A stretch of DNA of 21,295 nt from Acidobacteriota bacterium (GTDB lineage: Bacteria; Acidobacteriota; Terriglobia; Terriglobales; Acidobacteriaceae): assembly GCA_021799405.1 (NCBI GenBank), contig JAJZAL010000067.1, positions 1 to 21,295 on the forward strand, given 5' to 3'. This document shows, in pieces, positions 1,488 to 20,862 of this stretch (its first letter is position 1; every line of letters begins with the position of its first letter). A model generated the notes under the pieces. It ran no database searches. It worked only from the letters and a program-made list of their open reading frames with translations, and had not been told where the DNA came from. Both the position numbers and the translations under genes were made by a program.

Positions 1488-1493
1488 AGCCCG

Positions 1494-2447: not shown

Positions 2448-2494
2448 AAGACCCCTCAGCCTGTATGATCGTCGCAGGTCATTGATCCTCCCAC

Positions 2495-3460: not shown

Positions 3461-3541
3461 GCTTTCTTCAAAGCCAAGCCCGATCGCTCGCCGCCTTGAA
3501 AGGGATTTCGGGCCACTTCGACATCGGCCTTTGCTATTTCG

Positions 3542-5404
3542 ATGAAGAATGTAATTAAGCTCATTGTTCTCTTTGTCTTCATTGCCTCCTTCGGACATCC
3601 CTCCGGCGCGCAAGAGGCGCCCGCATCTCACTCCTTCCGAGTGGAAAACGGAAAATTTGCCCTTGACGGCAAACCCTTCCAGATCATCGCCGGTTCCATC
3701 CACTATGTGCGCGTTCCACGCGCTTACTGGCGCGCGCGCCTGCGGATGGCCAAGGCCATGGGCCTCAATACCGTCACCACGTACGTCTTTTGGAACGTAC
3801 ATGAGCCGCGTCCCGGCGTATATGACTTCTCCGGCCAGTACGATGTGGCTGAGTTCATCCGCGAGGCGCAGCAGGAGGGCCTGTACGTGATTCTCCGGCC
3901 CGGGCCGTACGCCTGCGCGGAGTGGGAGTGGGGCGGCTATCCTGCATGGCTCCTCAAGCAGCGTGGCATTGTGGTGCGCAGCACGGATCCCAGATTCATG
4001 GTCCCGGCAAAGCGCTGGCTCATGCGGCTCGGCAAGGAGCTTGCCCCTCTACAGATCGGCGATGGCGGCCCGATCATCGCCGTCCAGGTCGAAAATGAGT
4101 ATGGCTCCTTCGGCAGCGACCATGCCTACATGGAGCAGATTCACCACGCGATCCTCGATGCCGGCTTTACCAAGGCGCTCCTTTACACCGCTGACGGTCC
4201 TGCGCAGATACCCAACGGAGCCCTGCCGGAATTGCCAGCCGTGATCAACTTCGGTCCCGGCGACGCAAAGCACGGCTTCGCGACACTTCATCGCCTTCGT
4301 CCCAACGGCCCCTTCATGACCGGCGAGTACTGGGACGGCTGGTTCGATCACTGGGGCGAAAAGCACCACACCACCAATGCCCAGCAGCAGGCCGATGAGA
4401 TTGCCTGGATGCTCCAGCAGGGCTACTCACTCAACATGTACATGTTTCACGGCGGCACCAGTTTTGGCTGGATGAACGGCGCCAACATGAACAACGGCAA
4501 ATATGAGCCGGACGTCACCAGCTACGATTACGACGCCGCGCTCGATGAAAGTGGCCATCCCACGAAGAAGTACTACCTGTTTCGCGACGTCATCGCCAAG
4601 GCGACCGGGATCACGCCGCCTCCCGTACCCTCCGTTCCCGCCCCAGTCGCCGTGCCTGAAGTCACGTTACGTCAGTCGGCCTCTCTCTGGAGCAACTTGC
4701 CCACACCGGTGCATTCTACCCAGGTCCTGAGCATGGAGGACATCGGACAGGCCTACGGATACATCCTCTATCGAACCGTTGTTCCCGGCCCCGTCCAGGG
4801 AGACCTCGTCCTCGATGAGTTGCACGACTACGCGCAGATCTACGCCAACGGGAAACTCCTCGGCACTCTGGACCGGCGCCTTAATCAAAATCGTCTTCCC
4901 GTCGATCTGAAGGGCCACAACACGCGCCTCGACATCCTGGTCGAAAACAGCGGCCGGGTCAACTTCTCGCTAGCCATCCGCGGCGAGCGCCAGGGCATCA
5001 CGAAACAAGTTACGCTGGCAGGCAAACCGCTCACCGGATGGCAAATCTATTCCCTTCCCATGACTGATCCGGAAAAGCTCCCATTCAGCGCGGCGGATTG
5101 CACCGGAGCCTGCTTCTATCGCGGCACTCTGCATGTCGATCGGGTTGGCGACACTTTTCTTGACACCGGCAGTTTCACCAAGGGCTTTGTCTGGGTGAAC
5201 GGCCATCCGCTGGGCCGCATCTGGAACATCGGGCCACAGCGAACTCTCTACCTCCCCGGACCGTGGCTTCGGAAGGGTGAGAATGATGTCATTGTCTTCG
5301 ACCTCCAAGGCGCTCCGGGCAGAACCATTGAAGGCAGAGCAGCGCCAATTCTCGATGCAACTGCAGCGCAGCCTTCGCAAGGACAAGCTCGCAAGGCAAA
5401 ATAA
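3542..5404 (+). CDS. Exported GH35 beta-galactosidase
   Basis: A 620-residue glycoside hydrolase family 35 enzyme that removes terminal beta-galactosyl residues. Residues 1-23 form a signal peptide (MKNVIKL, hydrophobic core, SGAQ), so it acts in the periplasm or outside. The catalytic TIM barrel spans roughly 33-350. Hallmarks are GSIHYVRVPRAYW (51-63), GPYACAEWEWGGYPAWLL (121-138), the acid/base Glu186 in VENEYG and the nucleophile Glu262 in MTGEYWDGWFDHWG. The beta-sandwich domains common in this family follow to about 600. Length is near the family norm for compact bacterial GH35. It is embedded with a kinase, isomerase, mutarotase and DeoR repressor, pointing to galactoside use. No strong Shine-Dalgarno is seen close to the ATG. 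Natural substrates (plant galactan, arabinogalactan or glycan beta-galactosides) cannot be told apart. Confidence 0.93.
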   Translation: MKNVIKLIVLFVFIASFGHPSGAQEAPASHSFRVENGKFALDGKPFQIIAGSIHYVRVPRAYWRARLRMAKAMGLNTVTTYVFWNVHEPRPGVYDFSGQYDVAEFIREAQQEGLYVILRPGPYACAEWEWGGYPAWLLKQRGIVVRSTDPRFMVPAKRWLMRLGKELAPLQIGDGGPIIAVQVENEYGSFGSDHAYMEQIHHAILDAGFTKALLYTADGPAQIPNGALPELPAVINFGPGDAKHGFATLHRLRPNGPFMTGEYWDGWFDHWGEKHHTTNAQQQADEIAWMLQQGYSLNMYMFHGGTSFGWMNGANMNNGKYEPDVTSYDYDAALDESGHPTKKYYLFRDVIAKATGITPPPVPSVPAPVAVPEVTLRQSASLWSNLPTPVHSTQVLSMEDIGQAYGYILYRTVVPGPVQGDLVLDELHDYAQIYANGKLLGTLDRRLNQNRLPVDLKGHNTRLDILVENSGRVNFSLAIRGERQGITKQVTLAGKPLTGWQIYSLPMTDPEKLPFSAADCTGACFYRGTLHVDRVGDTFLDTGSFTKGFVWVNGHPLGRIWNIGPQRTLYLPGPWLRKGENDVIVFDLQGAPGRTIEGRAAPILDATAAQPSQGQARKAK

Positions 5405-5429
5405 ATAGATAGGAAGTGAGGCCAGAACG

Positions 5430-6221
5430 ATGAAGGTCAAATCAAAAAATGGAAGCAACATGCTCATCGGCGAGCGCCGCCAGCACATCCTAGCCCAGAT
5501 CCAGCGCGATGGGCGCGTGCTGATCTCCGAGCTCTCCGATCACCTCGGCATCTCTCGCATCACCATCCGGAAGGACCTTGACGATCTTGCGACGCGAGGC
5601 CTGGTGAGACGCACCCACGGCGGCGCGCTGTCTGTGCAGGGCACCGCCCTGCTCGATCCCTCGTTGCGCGAAAAGGAGCAGAAGCAGCTCAAGGAGAAGC
5701 AGCGAATCGCCAGGGCTGCCGCCGATCTGGTGACTGAAGGCATGTGCGTCCTGCTCGACTCCGGCACCACCACCACGGCCATCGCCCGCGAATTGCGCCG
5801 CTTCTCGCGCCTCACCGTCATCACCAACGCTCTGAACATTGCCACCGAGCTGGCAGGCACCGATTTTGAAATCCTCCTCACCGGCGGCGCGCTGCGCAAA
5901 AACTCGTTCTCGCTGGTCGGGCCGCTGGCGGAGGATATGCTCCGCGAGGTACGCGCCGATATTCTCTTCCTCGGCGTGGATGGCTTCGACGCCCGGACCG
6001 GAGTCATGACGCCGAACCTGCTGGAATCTCGCGTCAATCGCGCCATGGTCAAAGCTTCAGTGCGCGTGGTGGCCGTCTGCGACTCGACCAAGTTCAACCG
6101 CCACAGCCTCGCGCTCATCGCGCCGGCCTCAGCCATTCACACGGTCATCACCGACAGTCAGATCAGCCCGGAAGACGTGGAGGCCCTCACCGCCGCCAAC
6201 ATCGAGGTCATTCGCGTGTAG
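5430..6221 (+). CDS. DeoR/GlpR-family transcriptional repressor
   Basis: A 263-residue regulator with a DeoR-type winged helix-turn-helix at about 15-65 (RRQHILAQIQRDGRV, then ISRITIRKDLDDL and the RRTHGGA wing). A DeoRC sugar-phosphate sensing domain follows at about 88-245 (DSGTTTTAIA, TNALNIA, LTGG, LGVDGFD, CDSTKF). These proteins usually repress sugar operons until a phosphorylated intermediate binds. The ATG at 5430 has an AGGAAGTGAGG ribosome site about seven bases upstream. An in-frame ATG at 5460 (MLIGERRQ) is closer to the usual family start but lacks such a site. The gene is 25 bases after the GH35 gene and is last in the block, so it probably autoregulates the operon through sites before 435. 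Confidence 0.92.
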   Translation: MKVKSKNGSNMLIGERRQHILAQIQRDGRVLISELSDHLGISRITIRKDLDDLATRGLVRRTHGGALSVQGTALLDPSLREKEQKQLKEKQRIARAAADLVTEGMCVLLDSGTTTTAIARELRRFSRLTVITNALNIATELAGTDFEILLTGGALRKNSFSLVGPLAEDMLREVRADILFLGVDGFDARTGVMTPNLLESRVNRAMVKASVRVVAVCDSTKFNRHSLALIAPASAIHTVITDSQISPEDVEALTAANIEVIRV

Positions 6222-6295
6222 AATAGCGCCGGGGCCGTTGAGATCCCTGCTCGAACTCGCTCCACAAACTTCCGCGGACACCAAGTCGCTGCAGC

Positions 6296-6327
6296 CTTGC
6301 CCGACCCCGGAAGCGCAATCCGGCAAG
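6296..6327. terminator. Weak stem-loop between convergent genes
   Basis: CTTGCC (6296-6301) pairs with GGCAAG (6322-6327), enclosing a GC-rich loop with a further CCGG/CCGG pairing. It lies between the DeoR stop (6221) and the rhaB stop (6328) and could serve transcripts from either side. No T-run follows on either strand, so intrinsic termination is doubtful. Confidence 0.25.
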
Positions 6328-7743
6328 CTACCCGGCGCATAGCCGCCTGGCCCACCCTCGCAAAGCTTCGGGGCGGACGGGCTGTCCGCCGCACTCGCTC
6401 GATGCAAGCTGAATGGCAAGGCTGCCGATGGTAGAGCTTTCTGTTTCGCCCACCTCGACAGGCAGGCCGGTACGCTTTTCGGTCAGCTCCACCAGCAGCT
6501 TGTTGCGCGTGGCCCCGCCAATCATGTGGATGCGATCCATCTTGCGGCCGAGCATCTTTTCCAGATTGGCCAGAGCCGCGGCGTAGCGCACGGCCAGGCT
6601 CTCAAAGATCACCCGCGCAAAGAGAGGCTCATTGCCGGCCACGTCGGGAATGGGATCGAAACCAAGCCGCTGCAGCTCGCCATTGATGCGCCGCGGCATC
6701 TCGGTATCGAGCAGCAGCACTTCGGCATCCATGTCGAGCACGCCCGTGGTGCTGCGCGCGGCTGCCTCCTGCACCAGCTTTTCGATCGCCCAGGCGCGGC
6801 CGTCCGTAGCCCAGCTATCCATGCACTGCTTGAGCACCCACATGCTGTTGATCAGCGAGTGGAAGAGCAAATCGCCGGTGGCCGCGCCCAGATTCATGTA
6901 ACCCGCATCAAAGGCATGCCTGCTCGTCACCGCTACATCCGTAAGCGTGCCGAGCAGCGACCACGTGCCTGTACTGAGGTAAGCGCCTTTGCTCAGGTCC
7001 GCGGGAATGCCGGCGATGGCTGAGGCCGTGTCATGCGTGGCCGGCGCGATGAGCTGCGTCTCGCGAAACGCATCAAGCACAGCCAGCGGGCCCTGCAAAC
7101 GCCCAACGACTTCGCCCGCGTGGATGATCGGCGGCGCGGCTTCGATTGGAATATCCAGCTCGCGGAAAACCTCGCGCGACCAGTCGCGGGTCTTCAGATC
7201 AACCAAGCCGGTATGCGTGGCGTGGGTGTATTCGGAGGCGCGCCGGCCGCCGAGCCAAAGGTGAATATAGTCCGGAAGGGTGATCCAGGGTGTGCGCGGA
7301 TCGATACCCGCCGCCGGGTCTGCCAGCAACTGGTAGACGGTGTTCAGCCGCAGCGGCAGCGCGCCGGTGCGTTGGTAGAGATCGAAAGGCGGAATGATCC
7401 GGTCGGCGGCTTCCTTGGTCGCAACCGTGCGTTCATCGCGGTAGCAGAAGGGATCACGCAGCGCGCGGCCATCCGGCGCCAGGCGCACATAGTCCACGCC
7501 CCAGCTATCCGCGCCGATGGAAGCGATGCCCTCCGGTGCGGCTTCCGCGGCCTTGCGAAGACCATCTTCAAGACCGGAGAGAATGGCCTTCAGATCCCAG
7601 TAGAGCGAATCTCCGCGATGCACCGGCCCGTTGGGAATGCGATGAATGACCTTAATCGAAGACTTACCGTCTATCCACCGCAGCAGCGATACACGGCAAC
7701 TTTCAGCGCCCAAATCAATGGCAACACGTGCAGGCTCTTGCAT
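6328..7743 (-). CDS. rhaB: Rhamnulokinase
   Basis: A 471-residue FGGY-family sugar kinase that phosphorylates L-rhamnulose to L-rhamnulose-1-phosphate in the cytoplasm. The N-terminal phosphate motif VAIDLGAESCRVSLL is the RhaB form. The sequence also shows GADSWGVDYV, CYRDERT, the mid-protein MNLGAATGDLLFHSLIN segment and the C-terminal IGGATRNKLLVELTEKRTG nucleotide-binding region. Length fits rhamnulokinases. The ATG at 7743 is directly preceded by an in-frame GTG (7746), either of which could be used; GGAG lies 11 bases before the GTG. It is the last gene of the minus-strand rhamnose block, 42 bases after the rhaEW stop, and faces the DeoR gene tail to tail. Confidence 0.93.
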   Translation of the reverse strand: MQEPARVAIDLGAESCRVSLLRWIDGKSSIKVIHRIPNGPVHRGDSLYWDLKAILSGLEDGLRKAAEAAPEGIASIGADSWGVDYVRLAPDGRALRDPFCYRDERTVATKEAADRIIPPFDLYQRTGALPLRLNTVYQLLADPAAGIDPRTPWITLPDYIHLWLGGRRASEYTHATHTGLVDLKTRDWSREVFRELDIPIEAAPPIIHAGEVVGRLQGPLAVLDAFRETQLIAPATHDTASAIAGIPADLSKGAYLSTGTWSLLGTLTDVAVTSRHAFDAGYMNLGAATGDLLFHSLINSMWVLKQCMDSWATDGRAWAIEKLVQEAAARSTTGVLDMDAEVLLLDTEMPRRINGELQRLGFDPIPDVAGNEPLFARVIFESLAVRYAAALANLEKMLGRKMDRIHMIGGATRNKLLVELTEKRTGLPVEVGETESSTIGSLAIQLASSECGGQPVRPEALRGWARRLCAG

Positions 7744-7785
7744 CACAACAGCTCAGTCTCCGTTCCCCAGTGGCTCCGCCCCGGA

Positions 7786-10005
7786 TTACCGCAAAAATGC
7801 CTCCGTCAAACCGCCGTCCACGGGAATCAGATGGCCAGTGGTACACCGCGAGTGGGGACCAGCCAGAAAGAGGATCGCCTCGGCGCAGTCAGCCGGCTCT
7901 ATCTCTTTGTTCGTCAGCGTGCGCTCCGCGTAGAACGCAGCCAGCCGGCTGCGCAGCTCCTCGTCGCTGAATGACTCCTGGAACGGAATATTGTACTTGG
8001 TTAATGAGGCGCGCACGCGGTCACGCGGAAACATGGTGGAACCCTTGACCACCGTGGCCGGGCTGATGCCGTTGACGCGAACATTCGGCCCGAGTCCTAC
8101 GGCCAGTTCACGGATGAGATGCGAAAGAGCAGCCTTGCTTACGTCATAGGCTTCGCTGCCGCGCTTGGCTACGACCGCGTTGGCTGAACTGGTAAAGACG
8201 ATCGTTCCATGCAGGCCCTGTTCCTCAAAGATCTTGGCGACCTCATCGGCGAGCAGGTAGTTGGCCGTTACATTCACATCGAATGTCGTGCCCCAAATCG
8301 AATCCGGGAAGATGCCGTCGGGGGTGGTCGCGTAGATCGCAGCAGTGTTCACCAGAATGTCGACACCGCCAAAAGCGGCCACCGCCGCCTTGAGCATACT
8401 CACAATCGCTTCGCGGCTGCGAATATCCACGCCCGAGCTGACCAGGAACTCCCGCGAGGTGACCGCTTCAAGTTCGGACGTAACCTTGGCCGCTCCGGCT
8501 TCGTCGCGATCGGCAACGATCACATGGGCGCCACGGCTGGCTGCCAGGAAGGCCACTTCACGACCAATTCCGTTGGCTCCTCCAATGACGACGGCCACAC
8601 GGCGGCTGAACTCCTTTTCCGCCGGCTGGCGCCGGATCTTCGCTTCTTCGAGCGCCCAGTATTCAATGCGAAAAGCTTCCGCGGCGGGCAGGGCGACATA
8701 ATTGCTGAAAACCTTGAAACTGGCCGGATCCATTTCATCCCCGCACTGCGGAACCGGACCCGGGACCGGGCCATCCGCCAGCAGACTGGCGCCTTCCATC
8801 ACATGAATGGCATTGGTGTAGAACTCGCCGGTAATCCGCGCTTCAGTCTTGTTCTTGCCAAAGCTGAACATACCCAGGCCGGGAATGAGAACCACCGTGG
8901 GGCTGGCATCGCGAATCGCGGGCGAGTCCTGCGTGGCAAAGGTGCGATAGTAGGCCCGGTACTGTTCGCGGTACTTGGCAAGCGCAACCGAGATATGCTG
9001 CTTCAGCGCATCAATACCCGACTCGGCCGCCCACGGCACGAACAGGGGACGAATCTTGGTGCGAATAAAGTGATCGGGGCAGCTTGTGCCCAGATAAGCA
9101 AGATCCTTGGCGTGTACGGAGTTCACGAACTGCAGTACGTCGGGAGCATCCGTAAAGCTGGCAATCCACCGGATCTGAGCGCTGATGCGGCCACGCAGGA
9201 AGGGCGCGATGGCGATGGCGATTTCCCTGCGGTCGGGCCGGGTTGGAACCGCTTCACCGCCGAAGCGAACCGCTCCCTTGGCAATCCCATGGCGCTCGAT
9301 AAACTGGCCGATCTGGTCAATGACGGTCAGCGTGTTCAGGTAGCACTCGCGCTGCGTCTCGCCCCAGGTGAAAAGTCCGTGGCCGCCCAGAACAATGCCG
9401 TCACAACCGGGATTTTCAGCCACGGCACGCTTCATCATCATGGCCAGCTCAAAGCCGGGACGCTGCCAGGGCAGCCAGATCAGCGAGTGACCGAACTCGC
9501 GGTTGAACTCCTCCATTTTGGCTTTGCCATTCGCCGATGCCGCCAGCGCAATGCCCCAGTCCGGATGGAGATGGTCCACATGAGGAAACGGAAGAAAACC
9601 GTGCAGAGGAGTGTCAATCGAAGCGACGACAGGATTGTTCCGGAAGGTGCACAGCGGATACATATCCACCATCGCGTCCTCGGTATCGGTGCCTTTATAG
9701 CTCCGCTCCAGGGCCAGCAGTTTCTCCTGGTAAAGGGTGGCGAAACCGGTGCGCTTGATGCTGCCCAGATCGCCGCCGGAGCCCTTTACCCAAAGAACTT
9801 CAATCGGCTCGCCGGTCAGGGGATCGGTCTCCTGGATCTTCGAGCTGGTATTTCCGCCGGCAAAGTTGGTGATGCGCAGGTCAGAGCCAAGCAGGTTGGA
9901 ACGATAGCGCAGTAGCTCGCCCTCGTCCAGAGTATTGGCAATCTCTTGATTCCAGCGGTCTTCAAGGAATTTAAGTACAGGGGAAGCAGTCGTTGCAAGG
10001 GTCAT
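7786..10005 (-). CDS. rhaEW: Bifunctional rhamnulose-1-phosphate aldolase / L-lactaldehyde dehydrogenase (SDR)
   Basis: A 739-residue fusion. The N-terminal part (about 1-430) is a class II aldolase/adducin-type domain with NFAGGNTSSK, the metal-binding HVDHLHPDWG (histidines near 142, 145 and 147) and GGHGLFTWG. The C-terminal part (about 465-739) is a short-chain dehydrogenase with the Rossmann loop GGANGIG (about 474-480) and the catalytic YDVSK (about 619-623). RhaEW-type proteins are known to cleave rhamnulose-1-phosphate to DHAP and L-lactaldehyde and to oxidise the lactaldehyde to L-lactate. I chose the ATG at 10005 (MTLATTASPV), the usual N-terminus; the frame stays open to an ATG at 10050 (MILTRHLYF), which would add 15 residues. 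It lies between the regulator and rhaB in the same orientation. Confidence 0.92.
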   Translation of the reverse strand: MTLATTASPVLKFLEDRWNQEIANTLDEGELLRYRSNLLGSDLRITNFAGGNTSSKIQETDPLTGEPIEVLWVKGSGGDLGSIKRTGFATLYQEKLLALERSYKGTDTEDAMVDMYPLCTFRNNPVVASIDTPLHGFLPFPHVDHLHPDWGIALAASANGKAKMEEFNREFGHSLIWLPWQRPGFELAMMMKRAVAENPGCDGIVLGGHGLFTWGETQRECYLNTLTVIDQIGQFIERHGIAKGAVRFGGEAVPTRPDRREIAIAIAPFLRGRISAQIRWIASFTDAPDVLQFVNSVHAKDLAYLGTSCPDHFIRTKIRPLFVPWAAESGIDALKQHISVALAKYREQYRAYYRTFATQDSPAIRDASPTVVLIPGLGMFSFGKNKTEARITGEFYTNAIHVMEGASLLADGPVPGPVPQCGDEMDPASFKVFSNYVALPAAEAFRIEYWALEEAKIRRQPAEKEFSRRVAVVIGGANGIGREVAFLAASRGAHVIVADRDEAGAAKVTSELEAVTSREFLVSSGVDIRSREAIVSMLKAAVAAFGGVDILVNTAAIYATTPDGIFPDSIWGTTFDVNVTANYLLADEVAKIFEEQGLHGTIVFTSSANAVVAKRGSEAYDVSKAALSHLIRELAVGLGPNVRVNGISPATVVKGSTMFPRDRVRASLTKYNIPFQESFSDEELRSRLAAFYAERTLTNKEIEPADCAEAILFLAGPHSRCTTGHLIPVDGGLTEAFLR

Positions 10006-10125
10006 GAAATTCACTCTTTTAGGGAAGTACAGATGTCTGGTTAAAATCATACGCCCTTGGGCATGCGAGAGGCAGAGATCCGCATCGCCGGCAAAGGAGC
10101 ACGAGAGAGATTCTGGCGCTTCTTC

Positions 10126-11226
10126 TCAGGTTGCGTCGTCCGCGTCCAGATTCTCAGGAGTCACGGCGCGATGACGCGCGTAGTTGTAAGGAGGCACACT
10201 ATAGCCCCGCAGGAGGGCAATGCCAAGTTGAATGAGGCGCGGACCGTAAGTCTCAACCCCGTGCGAGATCGAACCGATGATGGCACTTTTGCCTGAACGC
10301 ATCTCCGCAAGCACATCGGGGATGCAATCCTGGCCAACGATGGCAAAGTCCGATTCACAGCCCAACTCACGAACCGCATCCAGAACGCCCAGGGCGCTGG
10401 AATCGGTCGCGGCCGCAACCAGAACATGCTGGCCCTTTTTATATGAATTCAGCGCACGCTTCATTGCCGAACGGCTTGGCTCACGCATGCCCCGGCCTTC
10501 GATCTCGATGAATCGATCAGACGGCAAGTCCTTGAACCGCGCGCGGATTCCGTCAAAGCTGCCTGTGATGCGGCTCTGCACAAAGCTGCCCGCCTCGCTG
10601 AAGCCAACGCCGATCACCTTATCGACCTTGCCTTTCCATTTGCTCAGCGCATGCTGGGCCAGCAATGCTCCCGCTTCGTATCCCGCTTCGAAATTATCCA
10701 CCCCGAAATAAGTAGAGTTCGGGTGGGGCACATCGATGGCTACGAGCGGAATATCGGCGTTTTTGAAGATGCGAGCCACGCGCGGCGCCACCGCTTCCTC
10801 CACTTGGAATTCGAGCACCAGGTCCACCCGCTTGGCCACAAACTCTTCGGCATTCTGGATGGCAACGTTGGCGTCGTAGCGGTTGTCGAGGATATGCAGT
10901 TCGACGCCGGCCGCCGCTGCCGCCGCAATCACGCTCTGTGTGACCGCTACGCCGAAAGGCATCTCGCCGCTCTCTGTCGCAAAGCCAAAGCGCAGCCGCC
11001 GCGGCCGTGAAACCAGGCGGTATTGGCCACTCTGCGTCTGGGCCACATAACCCCTATGAACAAGCGTCTTGAGGATGCGATAGACACTGGTCTTGGAGAT
11101 TTGCGTCTTCTGGAAGACGTCTTCCAGAGAGACAGCCGCATGGCTCTGCTCCAGCAGCTCGATCACATCGAGCGCCTTCGACAGAATCGGAATCAGATAC
11201 AGCCGCTTAATCTTTGTCTTCGGCAA
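10126..11226 (-). CDS. IclR-type HTH fused to periplasmic-binding-protein sensor: probable rhamnose regulator
   Basis: A 366-residue regulator with a non-standard domain pairing. Residues about 10-72 form an IclR-type winged helix (ILSKALDVIELL, then ISKTSVYRILKTLVHRGYVA). Residues about 78-350 form a type-1 periplasmic-binding fold as in LacI/ribose-binding proteins (RFGFATESGEMPFGVAVTQ, ADIPLVAIDVPHP, YFGVDNFEAGYEAGALLA, FAIVGQDCIPDVLAEM). IclR proteins normally carry a GAF-like effector domain instead. No early ATG exists. I chose the TTG at 11226 because AGGGAG lies six bases before it; an in-frame TTG at 11253 is the alternative. The gene lies 51 bases after rhaI and 120 bases before rhaEW, inside the rhamnose block, so it probably senses rhamnose or a pathway intermediate. 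Confidence 0.85.
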   Translation of the reverse strand: MPKTKIKRLYLIPILSKALDVIELLEQSHAAVSLEDVFQKTQISKTSVYRILKTLVHRGYVAQTQSGQYRLVSRPRRLRFGFATESGEMPFGVAVTQSVIAAAAAAGVELHILDNRYDANVAIQNAEEFVAKRVDLVLEFQVEEAVAPRVARIFKNADIPLVAIDVPHPNSTYFGVDNFEAGYEAGALLAQHALSKWKGKVDKVIGVGFSEAGSFVQSRITGSFDGIRARFKDLPSDRFIEIEGRGMREPSRSAMKRALNSYKKGQHVLVAAATDSSALGVLDAVRELGCESDFAIVGQDCIPDVLAEMRSGKSAIIGSISHGVETYGPRLIQLGIALLRGYSVPPYNYARHRAVTPENLDADDAT

Positions 11227-11277
11227 ACCCCTCTCCCTTTGGGACAAAAACAACCGGAACTCCGGCCATGTCCTAAC

Positions 11278-12471
11278 TCAAGCGTAACTGCTGACCGCCG
11301 CGTGGCGGCTGCCTCTTTCCTGGGCGATGCGCTCCACATAGCCGCTGGCCCGCAGCGCCGCCAACGGATCGGCCGGCAAGCCGCGCGCTTCACGCCAGGC
11401 CGCGGCCAGCGGACGAACATCCTTCCAGAAAGCACCGCGGAAAAGCTCCTCGGCGGCAACCAGATCACACGATTGCTGATACTCGGCCAGCTTCTCCCGA
11501 TCAATCAGCGCGGCCTTCAGATACAGTTCCTGAGCCGTCACAACCGTCTGCACCATTGCTTCAATTTTCCCCTTCAGATTGTGGCTCTGGTCAATCATAT
11601 AGGCGACATCGAGATTCAGGCCATCGGCGGCAGCCGAGTGAATCTCATGGAAAATGCGGAAGATTTGATATGGATCAATAGAGCCCAGCGTCAGATCGTC
11701 GTCCGCATAACGGCGGTCGTTAAAGTGGAAGCCGCCCAGCATGCCCGTGTGCAGCAGCCAGGCCACAATCTGCTCGATGTTCTGCGTGGTGTAGTGATGG
11801 CCGGTATCCACCAGCACGCAAGCTTGCGGACCGGCATGGCGGGACAACTGCACGGACATGCCCCAGTCTGCAATATCGGTGTGATAAAACGCAGGCTCGA
11901 AGGGCTTGTATTCAACCAACAGCCGCTGGTTCGGCGCCAGATGCTGGTGAGAAGTGCACAACGCCTCTTCAAGCCAGCCAATGCGCTTGCGGATGCTTTG
12001 CGTGCCGGGATAGTTCGATCCGTCGGCCAGCCACAGGGAGATATCGCGCGCTCCCAGCGCCTTGGCAATTTCTATCGAGTCCAGCATGTGCGCCACAGCT
12101 TGCTGCCGGATGGCCGCCGAGGGATTGCAGAGCGAACCGTACTTGTACTCCTGGTCCTGAAAGAGATTGGGATTGATGGAGCCGGATCGGACCCCGAAGC
12201 GGCGCTCCAGATCGCGCACTGCGGGCACATCTGCAAGACCGTTCGGCAAGTCCCACAGCACATGGAGTGCCAGCGTAGGCGTCACGCCGGTCAGTCGGTT
12301 GACCTCGGCCGCATCGGCAAACTTCTCCTCAATCGTGGATGCGGCTGCCGTCTGTAAGAACTTGCCGAAGCGCGTGCCGGTATTCGCGAATCCCCAGGAG
12401 GGAATCTCAATGTGGAAAGAGTCCAGGGCTTTAAATGCCTGGTCGAAGATCGCCGATTCCGAGTTTGTCAT
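11278..12471 (-). CDS. rhaI: L-rhamnose isomerase, RhaI type
   Basis: A 397-residue TIM-barrel, metal-dependent sugar isomerase that converts L-rhamnose to L-rhamnulose, the first step of the pathway. It resembles the Pseudomonas-type RhaI rather than the E. coli RhaA. Likely metal and catalytic residues are Glu187 in LLVEYKPFEP, Asp222 and the following histidines in VDTGHHY, His249 in GGFHFNDRRY, and the Asp cluster near 257-259. Start chosen at ATG 12471, which has AGAGGT nine bases upstream. The frame runs on to 12513, but that would overlap lutC and add a non-conserved MRPAESG segment. It follows lutC by 38 bases on the same strand. Confidence 0.9.
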   Translation of the reverse strand: MTNSESAIFDQAFKALDSFHIEIPSWGFANTGTRFGKFLQTAAASTIEEKFADAAEVNRLTGVTPTLALHVLWDLPNGLADVPAVRDLERRFGVRSGSINPNLFQDQEYKYGSLCNPSAAIRQQAVAHMLDSIEIAKALGARDISLWLADGSNYPGTQSIRKRIGWLEEALCTSHQHLAPNQRLLVEYKPFEPAFYHTDIADWGMSVQLSRHAGPQACVLVDTGHHYTTQNIEQIVAWLLHTGMLGGFHFNDRRYADDDLTLGSIDPYQIFRIFHEIHSAAADGLNLDVAYMIDQSHNLKGKIEAMVQTVVTAQELYLKAALIDREKLAEYQQSCDLVAAEELFRGAFWKDVRPLAAAWREARGLPADPLAALRASGYVERIAQERGSRHAAVSSYA

Positions 12472-12509
12472 AGCGTTTTTACCTCTGATCGGGCCGCTTT
12501 CTGCCGGCC

Positions 12510-13193
12510 TCATTGCGGTGTTGGTCGCGCATCCCCTTCGTCATGAACAAGGATCACATGGAGGAAGCGCGGTCCATGAACTCCCTTAATGCGCGTCATT
12601 TCGATATCTGCCGTCGCGCTGGGTCCCGAGATGAATGTGGCCAGTGCAGGCGGCTGCGGGCAGCGGCGAAAGTACTCCGGCAAGGTTTCCACCACCTGGC
12701 TGGCGAGCAAGATGCAAAGGTGCCAGTCCGGCAGCAGCGAGAGCACCCGCCGGCCTTCCATCGCCGAGTGATGCAGTACGATCGTTCCCGAATCAGCGAC
12801 GCCGCAAAAAGCCGCCGTCACCACCCCTTCAGCCTTTTCGATCTCCGCGGTCTCCAGGCTGCTGTCCATCTTCCAGTTGAACCCCGCGGCATACCATTCA
12901 GCCGGCAATCCCACGGGCGCGGCAAACGTATGCCTGCCGCTCGACCCAAGCTGCGTGGCGATGGCCTCCGGCAACTGATCCGGCGTGCTCTCCACCACCT
13001 CCGCGTCGTATTCGCGCAGGCGCTCGATCATGCGCTCGACGCAGGCTTCCGCGCTCAATTGGCCGATGCGCTGATAGCCGCGAGGCAGCGCCGCGTAGCC
13101 CTCCGCAAGCTGGGCAGGAGCCTTCGCAACCGGCCGGGTAGTGGCGGCGATGCTGTCAAGAATTCGCTGCCGCGATGTGGCGGACGCGCTCAT
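12510..13193 (-). CDS. lutC: Lactate utilization protein C (LUD domain)
   Basis: A 227-residue LUD-domain protein, the small subunit-type component of the LutABC (LldEFG) L-lactate oxidation system. The domain covers the C-terminal two thirds, with EKAEGVVTAAFCGVADSGT followed by LLPDWHLCIL and ISGPSATADIEMTRIKGVHGP, where the GPSxTADIE signature is typical. The ATG at 13193 overlaps the lutB stop by four bases (ATGA), indicating translational coupling. The same frame stays open for another 167 codons upstream inside lutB, but that extension is out of frame with lutB and shows no LutC similarity. The protein acts at the cytoplasmic side with LutA and LutB. Confidence 0.93.
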   Translation of the reverse strand: MSASATSRQRILDSIAATTRPVAKAPAQLAEGYAALPRGYQRIGQLSAEACVERMIERLREYDAEVVESTPDQLPEAIATQLGSSGRHTFAAPVGLPAEWYAAGFNWKMDSSLETAEIEKAEGVVTAAFCGVADSGTIVLHHSAMEGRRVLSLLPDWHLCILLASQVVETLPEYFRRCPQPPALATFISGPSATADIEMTRIKGVHGPRFLHVILVHDEGDARPTPQ

Positions 13194-14650
13194 CGTGCCT
13201 CCTTCCGGCGGGCCGCCCACCATTCGTGAAAGGTCTGGCTGGGCAGGCCGCGCAGATCGCGGGTTTGCGTCCATTTGGCGCCTACGCTGGGCAGCGAATG
13301 AATCCAGCCATCCTTGCGCGTAAAGCAGCGCAACCCGATGCGCGCCATCCGCTGCGCGGCGTGGAAGAGCCAGGCGCGGGAAAAGATGAGATTCGCAATG
13401 CGCAGCCCCAGGTACATGGGGTCGAAGATGCGGCCCGCCCGCTTGCGCTCCTGATCCACCACCTGGTGCCGCAACTCCAGCAGCACTTCGGGGATATTGA
13501 TCTTGACCGGGCAGACCTCGTAGCAGGCGCCGCAAAGCGAAGAGGCATACGGCAGCGATTGCGCATGGTGCATGTGCATCAGTTGCGGCGTAAGAATGGC
13601 CCCAATCGGCCCAGGATAAACCGAACCGTACGCGTGACCGCCCGTCTGCCTGTAGACCGGGCAGGCATTCATGCAGGCTGCGCAGCGAATGCACTTCAGG
13701 GTCTGCCGCTCGACCTCCCGCGCCAGCATCGAAGATCGTCCGTTGTCGAGCAGAACCACATGGAAGCGCTGCGGCCCGTCACCCGGTGTCACGCCGGTCC
13801 AGAGCGAGGTGTAGGGATTCATGCGCTCGCCGGTGGCGGAGCGGGCCAGCAACTGCAGCATCACCTCCAGATCCTGGTAACGCGGCAACACCTTCTCGAT
13901 CCCCGCCAGTGTAATCATGGTCCGCGGCAGGGTAAGGCACATGCGGCCGTTGCCCTCTGACTCGACGATCGCCACGGAGCCGGTTTCAGCAATGAGAAAA
14001 TTCGCCCCGCTGATCGCGGTGGGAACCGTCAGAAACTTCTGCCGCAGGTAGGAACGGGCAGCGGCGGTCAGAGCCTCGGGATCGTCGGAGAGATCCTTGA
14101 TCCCCATCCGGCGGGCAAATATCTCGCGCACCTGGCTGCGATTCACGTGCAACGCCGGCACGACGATGTGGGACGGCTCCTCGCCGCCCAGTTGCAGGAT
14201 GATCTCCGCCAGATCCGTCTCGTAAGTGCCGATCCCGGCAGCCTCCAGAAACGGATTCAGTTGGATCTCGGCCGAGGTCATCGTCTTGATCTTGATCACC
14301 TCGCTCGCATTCTCCTTGCGCAGCAGGTCGAGGATGATCTGGCGCGCTTCGGCCGCATCGGTCGCCCAGTGGACGATGCCGCCGGCAGCCGTGCATTTGG
14401 TCTCGAACTCAGTGAGATAGGCGCCCAGATTTTCGAGCACATGCGCGCGCATGGCCGAGGCCGCCGTGCGCAACTCCTGCCAATCTGTCTTTTCCGTGAC
14501 CAGCCGTGCCCGCTTGGCCTGGATCACATCAATGGCGTGGGCCACGTTCTTCCGCAACTGCGGGTTGCGGAGCACCGGAAGAGCGGCCTGCGGAAATGGC
14601 GGCGCCAGTGCCGGATCCAGCACCGGGTGGGTTGGAGCCGCGTGGCTCAT
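13190..14650 (-). CDS. lutB: Lactate utilization protein B (LUD plus iron-sulfur domains)
   Basis: A 486-residue iron-sulfur protein of the LutABC complex. Residues about 60-300 form a LUD domain (SGANFLIAETGSVAIVESEG at 214-233). This is followed by ferredoxin-type cysteines C320, C323, C326 and C330 (CIRCAACMNACP) and C373, C376 and C380 (CGACYEVCP), enough for two 4Fe-4S clusters when arranged as in the family. A C-terminal LutB-specific tail follows. It should pass electrons from L-lactate oxidation toward the respiratory chain. The ATG overlaps the lutA stop by four bases and its own stop overlaps the lutC start, so lutABC are translationally coupled. Length is typical. Confidence 0.95.
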   Translation of the reverse strand: MSHAAPTHPVLDPALAPPFPQAALPVLRNPQLRKNVAHAIDVIQAKRARLVTEKTDWQELRTAASAMRAHVLENLGAYLTEFETKCTAAGGIVHWATDAAEARQIILDLLRKENASEVIKIKTMTSAEIQLNPFLEAAGIGTYETDLAEIILQLGGEEPSHIVVPALHVNRSQVREIFARRMGIKDLSDDPEALTAAARSYLRQKFLTVPTAISGANFLIAETGSVAIVESEGNGRMCLTLPRTMITLAGIEKVLPRYQDLEVMLQLLARSATGERMNPYTSLWTGVTPGDGPQRFHVVLLDNGRSSMLAREVERQTLKCIRCAACMNACPVYRQTGGHAYGSVYPGPIGAILTPQLMHMHHAQSLPYASSLCGACYEVCPVKINIPEVLLELRHQVVDQERKRAGRIFDPMYLGLRIANLIFSRAWLFHAAQRMARIGLRCFTRKDGWIHSLPSVGAKWTQTRDLRGLPSQTFHEWWAARRKEAR

Positions 14651-15399
14651 TCCGTCACCTCCGCCGGAGACGCCTCGGTACTAGCCAGAATCTGCGCCAG
14701 ATGAATCGTCTTCATGCCCGCATACTGCCGGTGCATGGCTCCTCCCAGGTGCATCAGGCAGCTGTTGTCGAGAGCCGTGCAATATTCGGCCTTCGTCGAA
14801 ACCACGTCCTGCAGCTTGACCGCGAGCATCGCCGAGGAAACCTCGCCATTCTTTACGGAAAACGTGCCTCCAAAGCCGCAGCAACGGTCCAGGTTCGGCA
14901 ACTGGACAAGTTCCATCCCGCGGACTTGGGCCATCAGCCGCCAGGGCCGATCCCCCAGATGGAGCGCGCGCAGGCCGTGGCAACTGGCGTGATACGTCAC
15001 CCGGTGTGGGAAATAGGCGCCCACGTCCTCAACGGCAAGCCGGTCAATCAGAAACTCACTCAACTCGTAAACCCTGGGCAGCAGGGCCGCGAACTCCTTG
15101 CGGAGACTCTCGTTCCCCAGCTCATCAAAAAGTCCCGGATACTGATCGCGGATCATGGCCACGCACGATGAGGAAGGAATCACCACTGTCTCCGCATCCC
15201 GGTAAAGATGGACAAAGCGCTTGGCCTGGGAAAATGCCTCACCCCGAAAGCCGGTGTTGGCGTGCATCTGCCCGCAACAGGTCTGCCCGGCATGAAAGCT
15301 GAGTTCTACCCCCAGTCTTTCCAGCAGCGCAACCACCGCCCGCCCCGTCTCCGGAAAGAGTGTATCGTTGTAGCACGTGATAAAAAGCGAGGCACGCAT
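14647..15399 (-). CDS. lutA: Lactate utilization protein A (CCG-domain subunit)
   Basis: A 250-residue protein with two cysteine-rich CCG domains, as in LutA/LldE and heterodisulfide-reductase-like subunits. The first has C9 and the pair C41-C42 (QTCCGQ). The second has C140 (YHASCHG), C173-C174 (DRCCGFGG) and C214 (NSCLMHLGG), which would hold an iron-sulfur cofactor. It works with LutB and LutC to oxidise L-lactate to pyruvate. A clear AGGAG lies seven bases before the ATG, and a promoter with an overlapping inverted repeat lies 43-71 bases upstream. It is the first gene of the minus-strand block, ahead of the rhamnose genes, which supply lactate through lactaldehyde. Confidence 0.94.
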   Translation of the reverse strand: MRASLFITCYNDTLFPETGRAVVALLERLGVELSFHAGQTCCGQMHANTGFRGEAFSQAKRFVHLYRDAETVVIPSSSCVAMIRDQYPGLFDELGNESLRKEFAALLPRVYELSEFLIDRLAVEDVGAYFPHRVTYHASCHGLRALHLGDRPWRLMAQVRGMELVQLPNLDRCCGFGGTFSVKNGEVSSAMLAVKLQDVVSTKAEYCTALDNSCLMHLGGAMHRQYAGMKTIHLAQILASTEASPAEVTE

Positions 15400-16083: not shown

Positions 16084-19000
16084 ATGACAAATCTGCGCAC
16101 GCTCTCCCTCTGCCTCCTGGCCAGTGCGCTGCTTTCACCATCGGCATCACTGGCGCAGAAAGCAGCCCCTCCCGTACGCATTGTCAATCCAATTGACGAA
16201 AGCCACCTCATAACGCTCAAAGGGACCGTGAATCCGCTGGCCAACCCGAGGAATGACCGCGGGCCGGCGCCGGATAGCCTGCCGCTCAAGCGGATTCATC
16301 TCTACCTGAAACGCAGCCCGAGCCAGGAAGCAGCCCTGCGCCAGCTCATCGGCGAGATCAACACTCCGGGATCCCCCAATTATCACAAGTGGCTGACGCC
16401 GCAGCAGTTCGGCAAGCAGTTCGGCCCTTCGGATCAGGACATTACCACGATCGAAACCTGGTTGAACGGCCAGGGGTTTGGGGCAATCAAGGTGATGCCC
16501 GGCAAGCAGACCATCGAGTTCTCCGGCAACGTGGCCCAACTGCGCACCGCCTTCCATACCCAGATTCACAAGTACGTGGTGGGTGGCCAGATGCATTACG
16601 CCAACGCCACTGATCCGCAGCTGCCGGCCGCGCTGGCGCCCGTAGTGGGAGGTTTCGTTTCGCTCAACAATTTCCGGCCCAGAAGCTACGCGCAAAAGCT
16701 GGGCACGGCCATGTACGATCCAACCACAGGCAAAGCCACACCGCAGTGGACGCAGGGGACTGCCAGTGCCGGCGTCAACTTCGTGCTGTCTCCGCAGGAC
16801 TATGCGATTCAGTATGACCTGGGCCCGCTCTATAAGGCTGGAATCAACGGCAGCGGCCAGACCATCGCTATTGTCAACGAGGCCAATATCAACGTTGACC
16901 TGGTCAATCAATTCCGCACTCTCTTCGGTCTGCCTCCCAATCCGCCCCGCGTCATCATCGACGGCAACGACCCCGGCATCGACGGAATCAACAACCCCGA
17001 CGGCCCGAATTACGCCTCTATCGAAGCCTACCTGGATACGGAGTGGGCTGGAGCAGTAGCGCCTGACGCCACCATCGACCTGGTGATTGCCGCCGATACC
17101 GCGCTGCAGAATGGGCTGGTTCTGGCCCTCGAGCACGCCATCTACAACGACGTGGCGCCGGTCGTGAGCCTGAGCTTCGGTTTGTGCGAAGACGACCTTG
17201 GCTCCGCAAACCAGTTCATCAACGGATTGTACGAGCAGGCCGCTGCCCAGGGCATGACGGTTATGGTTTCCACCGGCGACAACGGCTCGGCAGGATGCGA
17301 CTCCAGCAATGCGTCATATGCTACCGGCGGTCAGGCTGTGAATGGCTTTGCCTCGACGCCTTATAACGTCGCCGTGGGCGGAACCGACTTTTACTATAGC
17401 GACTACAACAACCAAACTTCCCTGCAGACCCAGCTCGGAACCTACTGGAGCACGACGCCCACCCAGATGCCGCAGGCTTCGCTCCTGCAGCCAATCCCCG
17501 AGCAGCCGTGGAACGACAGTCAATATGGTCTGGACGCGGTGAGCTATTACAAAGACCTTACGAATTCGACCAATACGACGATTGCCGCCGGAGGTGGCGG
17601 GGCCAGCAACTGCGCAACCGGCAGCGGTTCCTCGTCCAGCGGCGGCTGGGGCACGTGCACAGCCGGCTATCCCAAGCCGTCGTGGCAAACCGGAGCCGGC
17701 GTTCCAGCCGACAAGGTGCGCGATCTGCCCGACGTCTCGCTCTATGCCGCCGACGGGATGAACTACAGCTTCTATCCCGTCTGTGCCGGTGATGGCGACT
17801 GCCAGCCCCCCTCGGGAAGCAGTCAGGTGCAGATCTCCGGAGTTGGCGGCACCTCGGCCGCGGCGCCATCTTTTGCCGGCATCATGGCCCTCGTCAATCA
17901 GAAGTACGGACCCCAGGGCCAGGCCGCCGCCATCCTGTATCCGCTGGCGGCACAATTCCCGTCCGCCTTCCATGATGTCGTGCATGGCACCAATTCCGTA
18001 CCTTGCCAACTCACCACGCCCGACTGCATCTCCGTGACCAACCCCATCGTTCTCCAGGCGAATTCCTCCAACGGGCTCTCTTCGAACGTGACGGAGGGCG
18101 AGATCGGCCTCAACGGCACGGCTGAATACGATGCCGCAGCCGGTTACGACTTGGCAAGCGGCCTTGGCTCAGTGGATGCCAGTGTGCTCGTCAACAACTG
18201 GGGCAACGTGAAGCTGGCCAGCACCACGGCCACCATGTCGGCTACCCCGACCACGATCACCCACGGGGCAGCGGTCACCATCAGCGGCACCGTATCCGGG
18301 GCCAGCGGCACGCCTACCGGCAATGTTGCGTTGATGACCGACAGCACCGAGCCGGGAGAGCAGGGAGTTACCACCTTCACTCTGAATAGCAGCGGAGATT
18401 ACTCCGGCAGCGTCACCACCCTGCCCGGCGGCACCTACAACATCTGGACGCAATACGGCGGCGACTCAACCAACGCCATGACTACCTCGCCAAAGACTCA
18501 GATGACCGTCAGTCCGGAGAACAGCGGCATCTTCCTCAACATCAATGAGCCTACGGGTTCGGTCACGGCTGGTCAGACAGTAAGTACACCCATCGATTAC
18601 GGCACGCAAATGCTGCTGAGCGCGCAGGTTGCGCCAAGTTCTCAGCTCACGGCGTTGGAGAACTGCTCGTCTTCAACAAGCACGGCCAAATGTCCCACCT
18701 TCACACCACCCACCGGGACCATCGTATTCACCGACAATAGCGCAACCCTGAAAACAGCCGTTCTCAATTCCGAAGGTGACGCGGAGTACAACGCGCCGTT
18801 TACGGTCGGCAAGCACTCGGTATCAGCCAGTTATAACGGTGACGCCAGCTACAACAAATCCACCGCTTCCTCGCCGATCACCTTCACTGTGGCGCAGGAC
18901 ACGCCACAAATCCTGGTAGGCGCCTCGAACCAGACGAGCAGTTCGTACGGCTTCCAGGTGGTTGGCGGCAAAGGCCAGCCGACGGTCCTCGATATCAGCC

Positions 19001-20862
19001 TGGAAAACGGTGCGCAGTGCAGCAGCGGCGGCGGCTCGTCCTCCCCGTGCGCTTCGTCCAATTATTACGGATACGGATCAACATCCACCTCAACGGCGAT
19101 TTATCCTGTCCCGGTCGCGCCGCCCACCGGCAGCATCACTGTCACCGGGCTTCCCTCCGGCGTCTCTGGCACCGCCACCCTCAGCCCCGGTGTGGATCCA
19201 ACCGATGGAGCAGTGGCGGGAATGGCCGCCATCACCATCCCGGCCTCCGCCACCGGCAGCTATAACATCACGATCACTTACAACGGAGATACGAATTACG
19301 TGAAGACAAGCGTCTCTGGAACGGTGCAGATCTCGCCGTCCAGCGGCCTCGCCTCCACAACCACCGCGAGCATGACCGGAGCCATCTCGCCAACCACCAG
19401 CATCACCGTAAATGGAACGGTGACCGGACAAAGCGGGCATCCCGCGCCAACGGGAAGCATTATTCTCTACTCGTCGGGCGCCACCGTATCCACTGTCAAC
19501 CTGAATCCCGGCAGCTCGGACGTCTCCACCTTCTCCGTCACCCTGAATAGTCAACTGCTCTTCCAGGGCGCGAATTTCGTCACCCTTCAGTACACGGGCG
19601 ACACCACATACGCCGCCTCGGCCTTCACGCTGAACAGCGGAGGCCCAATCTCCAACCCTCTCTCCGACTTCTCAATGGTGCCGCAGACGACCATTGTTCC
19701 CGTCAAGGCGGGTAGCAGCGGTACGGTAACCATCGATCTGGCCTCGGTGAACGGCTTCGCCGGGACCGTGAACCTGACCTGCACGGCCGATCCGGGTGTG
19801 GACTGCTCGATCCCGTCTTCTGTAGGCCTCAGCAATGGGGGCGGCACCACGGCAACACTCACCATCGACGCTGGAACCTACGCGGCCAACCAGAACTACA
19901 ACGTGACAATCACCGGCACGGATGCGGCGACAGGCAAGTTCGTTCACACCCTGGGACTCCAGGCGAACGTGAGCGGTTCGACAGCAGGCTCTCAGAGCTT
20001 CGCGCTGACGAATAGTGGCGACATCACCATCCCAACCCCCGGCCAAGCCGGCAATACGTCCACCATTACCGTGACTCCGCTCGGCGGATTTACAGGAACG
20101 GTCGGTCTGACCTGCTCAGTCTCCGGCACGTCCGGCCCCACCTCCGCCGCAACCTGCGCGCTCGCGCCGTCCTCGGTGAGTCTCTCCGGCGCGGCGCTCA
20201 CATCAACTCTGTCCGTCACCACGACGGCTTCAACTCCCACCGGAACTTACACGGTGACGGTGACCGGCAAGTCGGGTTCGATTGCGCCCACCACCACTGT
20301 AACCGTCAAGATCGGCACGCCTACTTACGCCCTGTCCAACAGCGGCAATATCACCATCACGAAGGGCGCAACCTCAGGCAACACGGCGACCATCAAGGTC
20401 ACGCCAGCGAATGGATTCACGGGAACGGTGGATCTGAGCTGCGTGGTCTCCGGCCCGTCCGGCGCCAACGATCCTGCAACCTGCGCTCTGTCTCCGCCAT
20501 CGGTCACCGTAAGCAACGGAGCGCAAACCTCCACGCTCACCATCACCACCACGGCTGCAACCTCCATGAACCAGCCGGAGAAGCTGTTCTGGCCGTCTAC
20601 AGGCGGGGCCGTCCTGGCGCTGGTCTTCTTCTTCGGCGTTCCCAAACGGCGGCGTAACTGGCTGGCGATGATCGGGCTACTGGCCTTCTTCGTCTCCCTT
20701 GCGGCAACCGGCTGCGGCGGCGGTGTCGCACCGCTTGGCAACAATGGAGGTACTGGAGGCACATCCAATCCCGGCACCACCTCCGGTACTTACACGGTGA
20801 CCGTGACCGGCGCCTCCGGCAGCATGTCGCAAACCACCCAGGTGACGGTAACCGTGAATTAA
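16084..20862 (+). CDS. Secreted S53 (pro-kumamolisin/sedolisin) protease with Ig-like modules and membrane hairpin
   Basis: A 1592-residue exported serine-carboxyl protease. Residues 1-25 are a signal peptide (cleavage after SLA) and about 40-200 a pro-kumamolisin activation domain. The S53 domain spans about 235-705, with Glu314 and Asp318 (SIEAYLDTEW), Asp399 (VSTGDNGS) and Ser591 (GGTSAAAP), and a calcium-site-like HDVVHGTN (630-637) and YDLASGLG. Four Ig-like modules follow to about 1190, each with a YNGD-, YTGD- or YGGD-type strand. Three modules with FxGTVxL(T/S)C and a second Cys come next. The last of these is split by a two-helix membrane segment (1495-1566). Start chosen at 16084 because the signal peptide begins there; its AAAGGA is 15 bases away, which is long. 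In-frame ATG codons at 15976 and 15877 are less likely. It probably degrades protein outside the cell while membrane-attached. Confidence 0.93.
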   Translation: MTNLRTLSLCLLASALLSPSASLAQKAAPPVRIVNPIDESHLITLKGTVNPLANPRNDRGPAPDSLPLKRIHLYLKRSPSQEAALRQLIGEINTPGSPNYHKWLTPQQFGKQFGPSDQDITTIETWLNGQGFGAIKVMPGKQTIEFSGNVAQLRTAFHTQIHKYVVGGQMHYANATDPQLPAALAPVVGGFVSLNNFRPRSYAQKLGTAMYDPTTGKATPQWTQGTASAGVNFVLSPQDYAIQYDLGPLYKAGINGSGQTIAIVNEANINVDLVNQFRTLFGLPPNPPRVIIDGNDPGIDGINNPDGPNYASIEAYLDTEWAGAVAPDATIDLVIAADTALQNGLVLALEHAIYNDVAPVVSLSFGLCEDDLGSANQFINGLYEQAAAQGMTVMVSTGDNGSAGCDSSNASYATGGQAVNGFASTPYNVAVGGTDFYYSDYNNQTSLQTQLGTYWSTTPTQMPQASLLQPIPEQPWNDSQYGLDAVSYYKDLTNSTNTTIAAGGGGASNCATGSGSSSSGGWGTCTAGYPKPSWQTGAGVPADKVRDLPDVSLYAADGMNYSFYPVCAGDGDCQPPSGSSQVQISGVGGTSAAAPSFAGIMALVNQKYGPQGQAAAILYPLAAQFPSAFHDVVHGTNSVPCQLTTPDCISVTNPIVLQANSSNGLSSNVTEGEIGLNGTAEYDAAAGYDLASGLGSVDASVLVNNWGNVKLASTTATMSATPTTITHGAAVTISGTVSGASGTPTGNVALMTDSTEPGEQGVTTFTLNSSGDYSGSVTTLPGGTYNIWTQYGGDSTNAMTTSPKTQMTVSPENSGIFLNINEPTGSVTAGQTVSTPIDYGTQMLLSAQVAPSSQLTALENCSSSTSTAKCPTFTPPTGTIVFTDNSATLKTAVLNSEGDAEYNAPFTVGKHSVSASYNGDASYNKSTASSPITFTVAQDTPQILVGASNQTSSSYGFQVVGGKGQPTVLDISLENGAQCSSGGGSSSPCASSNYYGYGSTSTSTAIYPVPVAPPTGSITVTGLPSGVSGTATLSPGVDPTDGAVAGMAAITIPASATGSYNITITYNGDTNYVKTSVSGTVQISPSSGLASTTTASMTGAISPTTSITVNGTVTGQSGHPAPTGSIILYSSGATVSTVNLNPGSSDVSTFSVTLNSQLLFQGANFVTLQYTGDTTYAASAFTLNSGGPISNPLSDFSMVPQTTIVPVKAGSSGTVTIDLASVNGFAGTVNLTCTADPGVDCSIPSSVGLSNGGGTTATLTIDAGTYAANQNYNVTITGTDAATGKFVHTLGLQANVSGSTAGSQSFALTNSGDITIPTPGQAGNTSTITVTPLGGFTGTVGLTCSVSGTSGPTSAATCALAPSSVSLSGAALTSTLSVTTTASTPTGTYTVTVTGKSGSIAPTTTVTVKIGTPTYALSNSGNITITKGATSGNTATIKVTPANGFTGTVDLSCVVSGPSGANDPATCALSPPSVTVSNGAQTSTLTITTTAATSMNQPEKLFWPSTGGAVLALVFFFGVPKRRRNWLAMIGLLAFFVSLAATGCGGGVAPLGNNGGTGGTSNPGTTSGTYTVTVTGASGSMSQTTQVTVTVN
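19669..20859 (+). repeat. Three tandem Cys-containing beta modules in the protease
   Basis: Module A begins at 19669 (FSMVPQTTIVPV), B at 19999 (FALTNSGDITIP) and C at 20326 (YALSNSGNITIT). Each carries NGFAGTVNLTC, GGFTGTVGLTC or NGFTGTVDLSC followed by a second Cys before a Ser/Pro-rich strand, suggesting a disulfide. B and C are close copies. Their closing strand GTYTVTVTG is at 20245 in B but displaced to 20785 in C by the membrane hairpin. Confidence 0.75.
20566..20781 (+). other. Membrane-hairpin insert inside the last beta module
   Basis: About 72 codons interrupt module C between its TTTAATS strand and its closing GTYTVTVTG strand. In order there are PSTGG (20593-20607), a short hydrophobic stretch AVLALVFFFGV, the basic loop KRRRN (20644-20658), a second hydrophobic stretch WLAMIGLLAFFVSLAATG, and Cys at 20713-20715 followed by a Gly/Asn/Thr-rich linker. 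The positive loop predicts an out-in-out hairpin. The AATG-Cys site looks like a lipobox although it is internal. I recall similar tails in other acidobacterial secreted proteins; anchoring is inferred. Confidence 0.6.

Follow-up and report, generated by a model that had tools for sequence, protein, structure and literature searches.

A putative internal lipoprotein signal on a membrane hairpin, inserted in an Ig-like module of an acidobacterial S53 protease

Bacterial C-terminal sorting signals of the LPXTG, PEP-CTERM and GlyGly-CTERM types combine a hydrophobic segment with basic residues close to the C-terminus. Both are also present in the tail described here, which ends the last gene of a 21,295-nucleotide stretch of DNA (the window) from an Acidobacteriota bacterium of the family Acidobacteriaceae (GenBank assembly GCA_021799405.1, contig JAJZAL010000067.1, positions 1 to 21,295 of the forward strand). 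Nonetheless, the tail differs from these systems in that no motif is conserved before its first membrane segment (TM1), the partner enzymes are inconsistently present and a further stretch follows that is predicted to lie outside. Whereas an LPXTG substrate has a single membrane segment and a basic tail at the extreme C-terminus, in the window protein a second membrane segment (TM2), a linker and two strands come after the basic KRRR. With bacterial lipoproteins the tail shares a basic n-region, a hydrophobic core, a Cys with G, A or S at position -1 and a Gly/Ser-rich stretch after it, but here the signal is internal: a large part of the protein, which is exported, and TM1 precede it. For MYXO-CTERM, passages of PMC11980579 describe a conserved Cys, a hydrophobic segment and basic residues in the C-terminal region, with predicted lipidation; the Cys stands ahead of a single segment with inverted topology, and no lipobox is defined there. 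The window tail likewise combines these three elements, but its Cys comes after TM2, in the normal lipoprotein orientation.

The gene encodes a secreted S53 (kumamolisin-type) protease from a soil bacterium (P0001, 1592 amino acids plus stop). According to profiles and structure models, its last Ig-like module (module C) is split between strands E and F by a membrane hairpin that carries a lipobox-like Cys, and the protein ends with strands F and G. The features are:

16084..20862, + strand: S53 protease with Ig-like modules (Pro-kuma_activ at E 2.3e-30, four Big_3_5 stretches)
16084..16155, + strand: N-terminal Sec signal peptide (MTNLRTLSLCLLASALLSPSASLA), predicted by eye from the sequence, N-terminus outside
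19990..20313, + strand: module B, uninterrupted and Ig-like, used for comparison
20317..~20547, + strand: first part of module C, strands A to E (profile and structure model, pLDDT blocks 88-97)
20584..20643, + strand: TM1 (LFWPSTGGAVLALVFFFGVP), PSTGG included; modelled as helical in part, at low confidence
20644..20655, + strand: basic loop KRRR, predicted to be cytoplasmic by the positive-inside rule
20656..20712, + strand: TM2, a lipoprotein-like h-region ending in AATG (sequence, tail conservation)
20713..20715, + strand: lipobox Cys1544, conserved among tails, proposed site of Lgt and LspA
20716..20784, + strand: linker rich in Gly, Ser, Thr and Asn, of low confidence in the structure models
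20785..20859, + strand: strands F and G (GTYTVTVTG onward), predicted to complete module C (profile, models, structure comparison)

An earlier note on this DNA had proposed that the hairpin splits module C and that a missing closing strand follows it. The split is borne out by a profile of intact modules, which matches both flanks, and by a model in which the trailing strands complete the domain; the closing part does reappear from 20785, although the structure models give it two strands (F and G) and not one. Applied to the part after the Cys, the same profile finds 164 of 181 proteins at E<0.01, against 3 of the 181 reversed and none of the shuffled sequences. The modelled split module matches single continuous Ig-like domains of solved structures in VIA-align 2, and it is because of this second look, not of Foldseek alone, that we make a statement on the fold. 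With a two-module model Foldseek gave 106 matches at E 0.001 or better, many of them tandem Ig-like proteins, which gives no precision at the level of single domains. Both parts of module C together are thus modelled as one Ig-like beta-sandwich, and both would lie outside according to the positive-inside rule, as had been suggested.

To describe the lipobox we used the loci L001-L140, which gave 137 tails after exclusion of L008-L011 (below the NCBIfam cut-off, L010 without a match) and 134 after removal of three identical ones. One of these loci, L015, consists of two adjacent reading frames, each with a tail at its end. The residue before the Cys is G in 97, A in 23 and S in 14 tails, thus G, A or S in 134/134, whereas in a control of internal hydrophobic segments followed by Cys (679 reading frames from two relatives) this holds for 13/30. 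At least three K or R are found in the loop of 133/134 tails (KRRR in the window), and the last basic residue is 13-24 residues away from the Cys; the window has KRRR and 19 residues ahead of its Cys, in the context AATGC. These counts agree with the earlier view of a basic loop and of a second half resembling a complete lipoprotein signal. The Cys stands 34-56 residues from the end. On average the loop has a net charge of +4.5, compared with +1.1 for the 15 residues that lead into TM1 and +0.3 for the first 20 residues beyond the Cys. The PROSITE lipobox pattern fits 111/134 tails. A profile of loop, TM2 and Cys run against the 679 reading frames had two matches below E 0.05: the C-terminus of one protein, which looks like another tail, and an N-terminal lipoprotein-like signal (E 0.0096); weaker matches were mixed. 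As a yardstick, a loose criterion for N-terminal lipoproteins selected 39 candidates, with G, A or S at -1 in 18/39, but these are no clean lipoprotein set since by eye many are ordinary signal peptides. Among eight pieces starting at the basic loop, one gave a match to LptM (Pfam), at E 8.4.

Because the 134 tails had been collected with a model that contains the Cys, a separate set was chosen by the protease domain (120 homologues among the matches listed, of 7482). A terminal cassette is found in 98 of them; six have an internal cassette by profile, P0151 has a nested one by eye and 15 have none. The Cys with G, A or S before it is present in 97/98 terminal cassettes, the exception being P0193 with Trp. 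This protein keeps the hairpin and the last strands near its C-terminus, which makes it a natural test case. Seven of the 15 cassette-less homologues are frameshifted or truncated (by eye) and eight have other C-terminal ends (P0124, P0126, P0133, P0172, P0177, P0183, P0191 and P0204). P0133 is labelled partial by its source, P0124 ends in a choice-of-anchor D domain and P0191 has a glucanase-like stretch scoring far under the cut-off of that model. The anchor may be exchangeable among the protease homologues.

The position of the cassette varies as well. Among 263 proteins it is terminal in 238, internal in nine and absent by profile in 16 (P0151 included), counts that are not frequencies as the tail or cassette was used in two of the three source searches; none has two cassettes by profile. 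In P0185, P0203, P0205, P0206 and P0207 the cassette lies ahead of a stretch resembling KAPTG or TAPTG in an earlier module, and in P0129 and P0189 the TTTGxYT strand of another module. When the flanks are joined, they are 76-77% identical to an uninterrupted module of P0014 (P0185 and P0203) and 42-48% to one of P0180 (P0189 and P0129). In P0151 a complete Ig-like module follows the Cys, with strands F and G still last; P0127 and P0145 resemble it, with less clear last strands. The cassette moves, yet it is inside Ig modules in those cases where its site could be assigned.

The tail is a member of NF058595 (NCBIfam invert_tail, 'lipo-invert putative C-terminal anchoring domain'): the match is full-length (residues 1481-1592, up to the last residue) at 82.3 bits, over the curated cut-off of 37. 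The name and description line of this family describe it as C-terminal, whereas relatives also have internal and nested copies, under the cut-off in 4/6 scanned; the name says nothing of a split Ig fold. No paper on the tail was found by literature text searches (lipo-invert, internal lipobox, prolipoprotein internal signals, MYXO-CTERM/Acidobacteria), and the broader matches among those listed contained nothing on it, judged by title and start of abstract. The earlier remark that no mechanism had been described agrees with these searches, but the tail itself already is a named domain.

Seven matches over the cut-off are present in the own genome: three S53 proteases (window included), two GH5 cellulases, a small Big_3_5 protein and a protein with HYDIN/ASH-type Ig domains. 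The tail is over the cut-off in 58/60 genomes of the same family and in at least 49/396 genomes of the phylum, where at most 11 candidates were scored per genome listed; of those with a best E of 1e-11 or better, 44 belong to the own family and two to another. By name, the relatives include Terracidiphilus, Acidicapsa, Silvibacterium and records labelled Acidobacteriaceae. In the 14 control genomes the cut-off was never passed, with weaker matches in five. Genome G418 has at least 42 candidates that the tail model matches with an E of 0.001 or lower (63/121 candidates scored); sortase and exosortase were both not found there.

Genes for both enzymes of the lipoprotein pathway are present in most of the genomes examined. 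The own genome has two matches to Lgt and one to LspA; in the family, LspA is found in 57/60 genomes (48/48 of high quality) and Lgt in 56/60 (47/48). Sortase is present in 27/60, with one homologue in the own genome, and exosortase in 34/60, with none in the own genome; rhombosortase is over cut-off in 0/60, with weaker matches in 59/60. On these counts from the 60 genomes, all three were rejected as partners.

We propose that the cassette is a movable anchor, namely an internal type II signal on a membrane hairpin that interrupts a loop of an Ig-like domain. The protein would first be exported through Sec, after which TM1 would enter the membrane from outside. KRRR would remain cytoplasmic and TM2 would lead out again, so presenting the Cys like that of an N-terminal lipoprotein signal. 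Lgt would then lipidate the Cys and LspA would cut just before it. This would leave two pieces: a large one with the hairpin at its end, and a short one that bears the lipid and contains strands F and G. Both would contribute to the Ig-like fold, which would clasp them together. As a cut within a beta-sandwich need not release its product, this would explain why the cassette is located inside an Ig module. In the GAIN domain of adhesion GPCRs autoproteolysis takes place within a beta-sandwich, the pieces being kept together by strand pairing; the likeness is an analogy only, and in the window protein the cut would be made by the lipoprotein pathway. Since TM2 is lipoprotein-like in orientation and length and the pathway enzymes are present, the lipoprotein route seems the most likely one, and since the split arrangement recurs in many related proteins, the folded domain may act as a clasp for a lipid anchor. 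The idea of a domain closing around its anchor, raised in the earlier note, is supported to this extent: sequence and model show the split fold, the hairpin, the conserved lipobox and the presence of genes for Lgt and LspA, whereas the clasp itself, the topology, the lipidation, the cleavage and the membrane reached in the end are inferred. We lean towards this account, though with no great assurance.

Several observations weigh against it. The signal is not N-terminal, the Cys being residue 1544 of 1592, and LspA is not known to act on a signal of this kind; for the same reason the tail is no standard lipoprotein, though perhaps it works like one. Of the 134 tails 23 miss the PROSITE pattern, the short Pfam lipoprotein-site models gave no match over cut-off in the eight pieces, G is the commonest residue at -3 in close relatives (32/97) and in P0193 the Cys is replaced by Trp. 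G433, a genome that is 99% complete, has tails (best E 1.2e-13) and no match to Lgt. Regarding the fold, Foldseek alone, queried with the model of module C, had nothing to match it with an E of 0.001 or lower, and at E<1 the post-Cys test counts 179 real, 175 reversed and 33 shuffled sequences of 181, so that only the strict limit separates. Finally, unless TM1 is cut too, the hairpin would still tie the large piece to the inner membrane. If LspA cut before the Cys and a rhomboid-like protease cut the outer part of TM1, the cassette would be removed after use; the Ig-like domain would remain in nicked form, with the lipid on its two final strands. Ordinary lipoprotein sorting would then bring the large enzyme, with its anchor close to the C-terminus, to the outer membrane or cell surface, and the cassette could convert the Ig module of a secreted protein into an anchor. 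We regard this variant as unlikely.

It might also be argued that Lgt modifies the Cys without any cleavage by LspA, the hairpin and one lipid holding an intact protein. The same sequence evidence applies to this explanation as to the proposed internal signal, and with a covalently continuous chain no clasp is needed; nonetheless LspA depends on a small residue at -1, which all 134 tails have, and we hold the uncut form to be somewhat unlikely. A plain hairpin anchor in the inner membrane, with an unmodified Cys, is rather unlikely: a hydrophobic hairpin with a basic loop suffices to anchor, and P0193 does without the Cys, but the conservation of [GAS]C in 134/134 tails and in 97/98 of the set that was not selected by its tail, against 13/30 controls, would then be left aside.

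The first half of the hairpin had been read as a sortase-type sorting signal, with co-occurrence of a dedicated sortase or exosortase suggested as a check. Indeed PSTGG, followed by a hydrophobic stretch and KRRR, is present in the window, PxTGG is found in 29/98 close S53 relatives (and is therefore a feature of some of them) and one homologue of sortase is encoded in the own genome. However, over the 34 residues that lead up to the basic loop in the wider tails, LPxTG occurs in 0/134, PxTG in 4/134 and PxTGG in 1/134, the sole case being the genome's copy of the window gene, so that PSTGG is no family feature. The basic stretch is succeeded by TM2 and by a tail predicted to lie outside, exosortase is missing from the own genome and 18/60 genomes have a tail over the cut-off with neither enzyme (14 of the 18 being at least 90% complete). 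A sorting signal centred on PSTGG is thus scarcely credible. At 20587-20589, near the start of TM1, the window differs by one residue from the genome's copy (L001) and from P0002: it has KLFWPS, and both of the others have KLLWPS. A functionless insertion, in which the last module was hit by a hairpin and its remainder simply persists, would fit a cassette able to sit at other sites; it is very improbable given the tail in 58/60 genomes, the recognisable last strands in 164/181 proteins and the lack of any double cassette by profile among the 263.

Upstream, the window (435-15399) encodes beta-galactosidase-like, kinase-like and aldolase/dehydrogenase-like products (sugar use) as well as an iron-sulphur lactate-use-type cluster, all judged by eye from the translations.

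If the proposed internal signal is real, the lipoprotein pathway would act on a signal in the middle of an exported protein and a folded domain would keep both products together. This would be an additional route, beyond the known sorting enzymes, for anchoring a secreted enzyme near its C-terminal end, and it would concern proteins, proteases and cellulases included, in 58/60 genomes of one family of soil bacteria.
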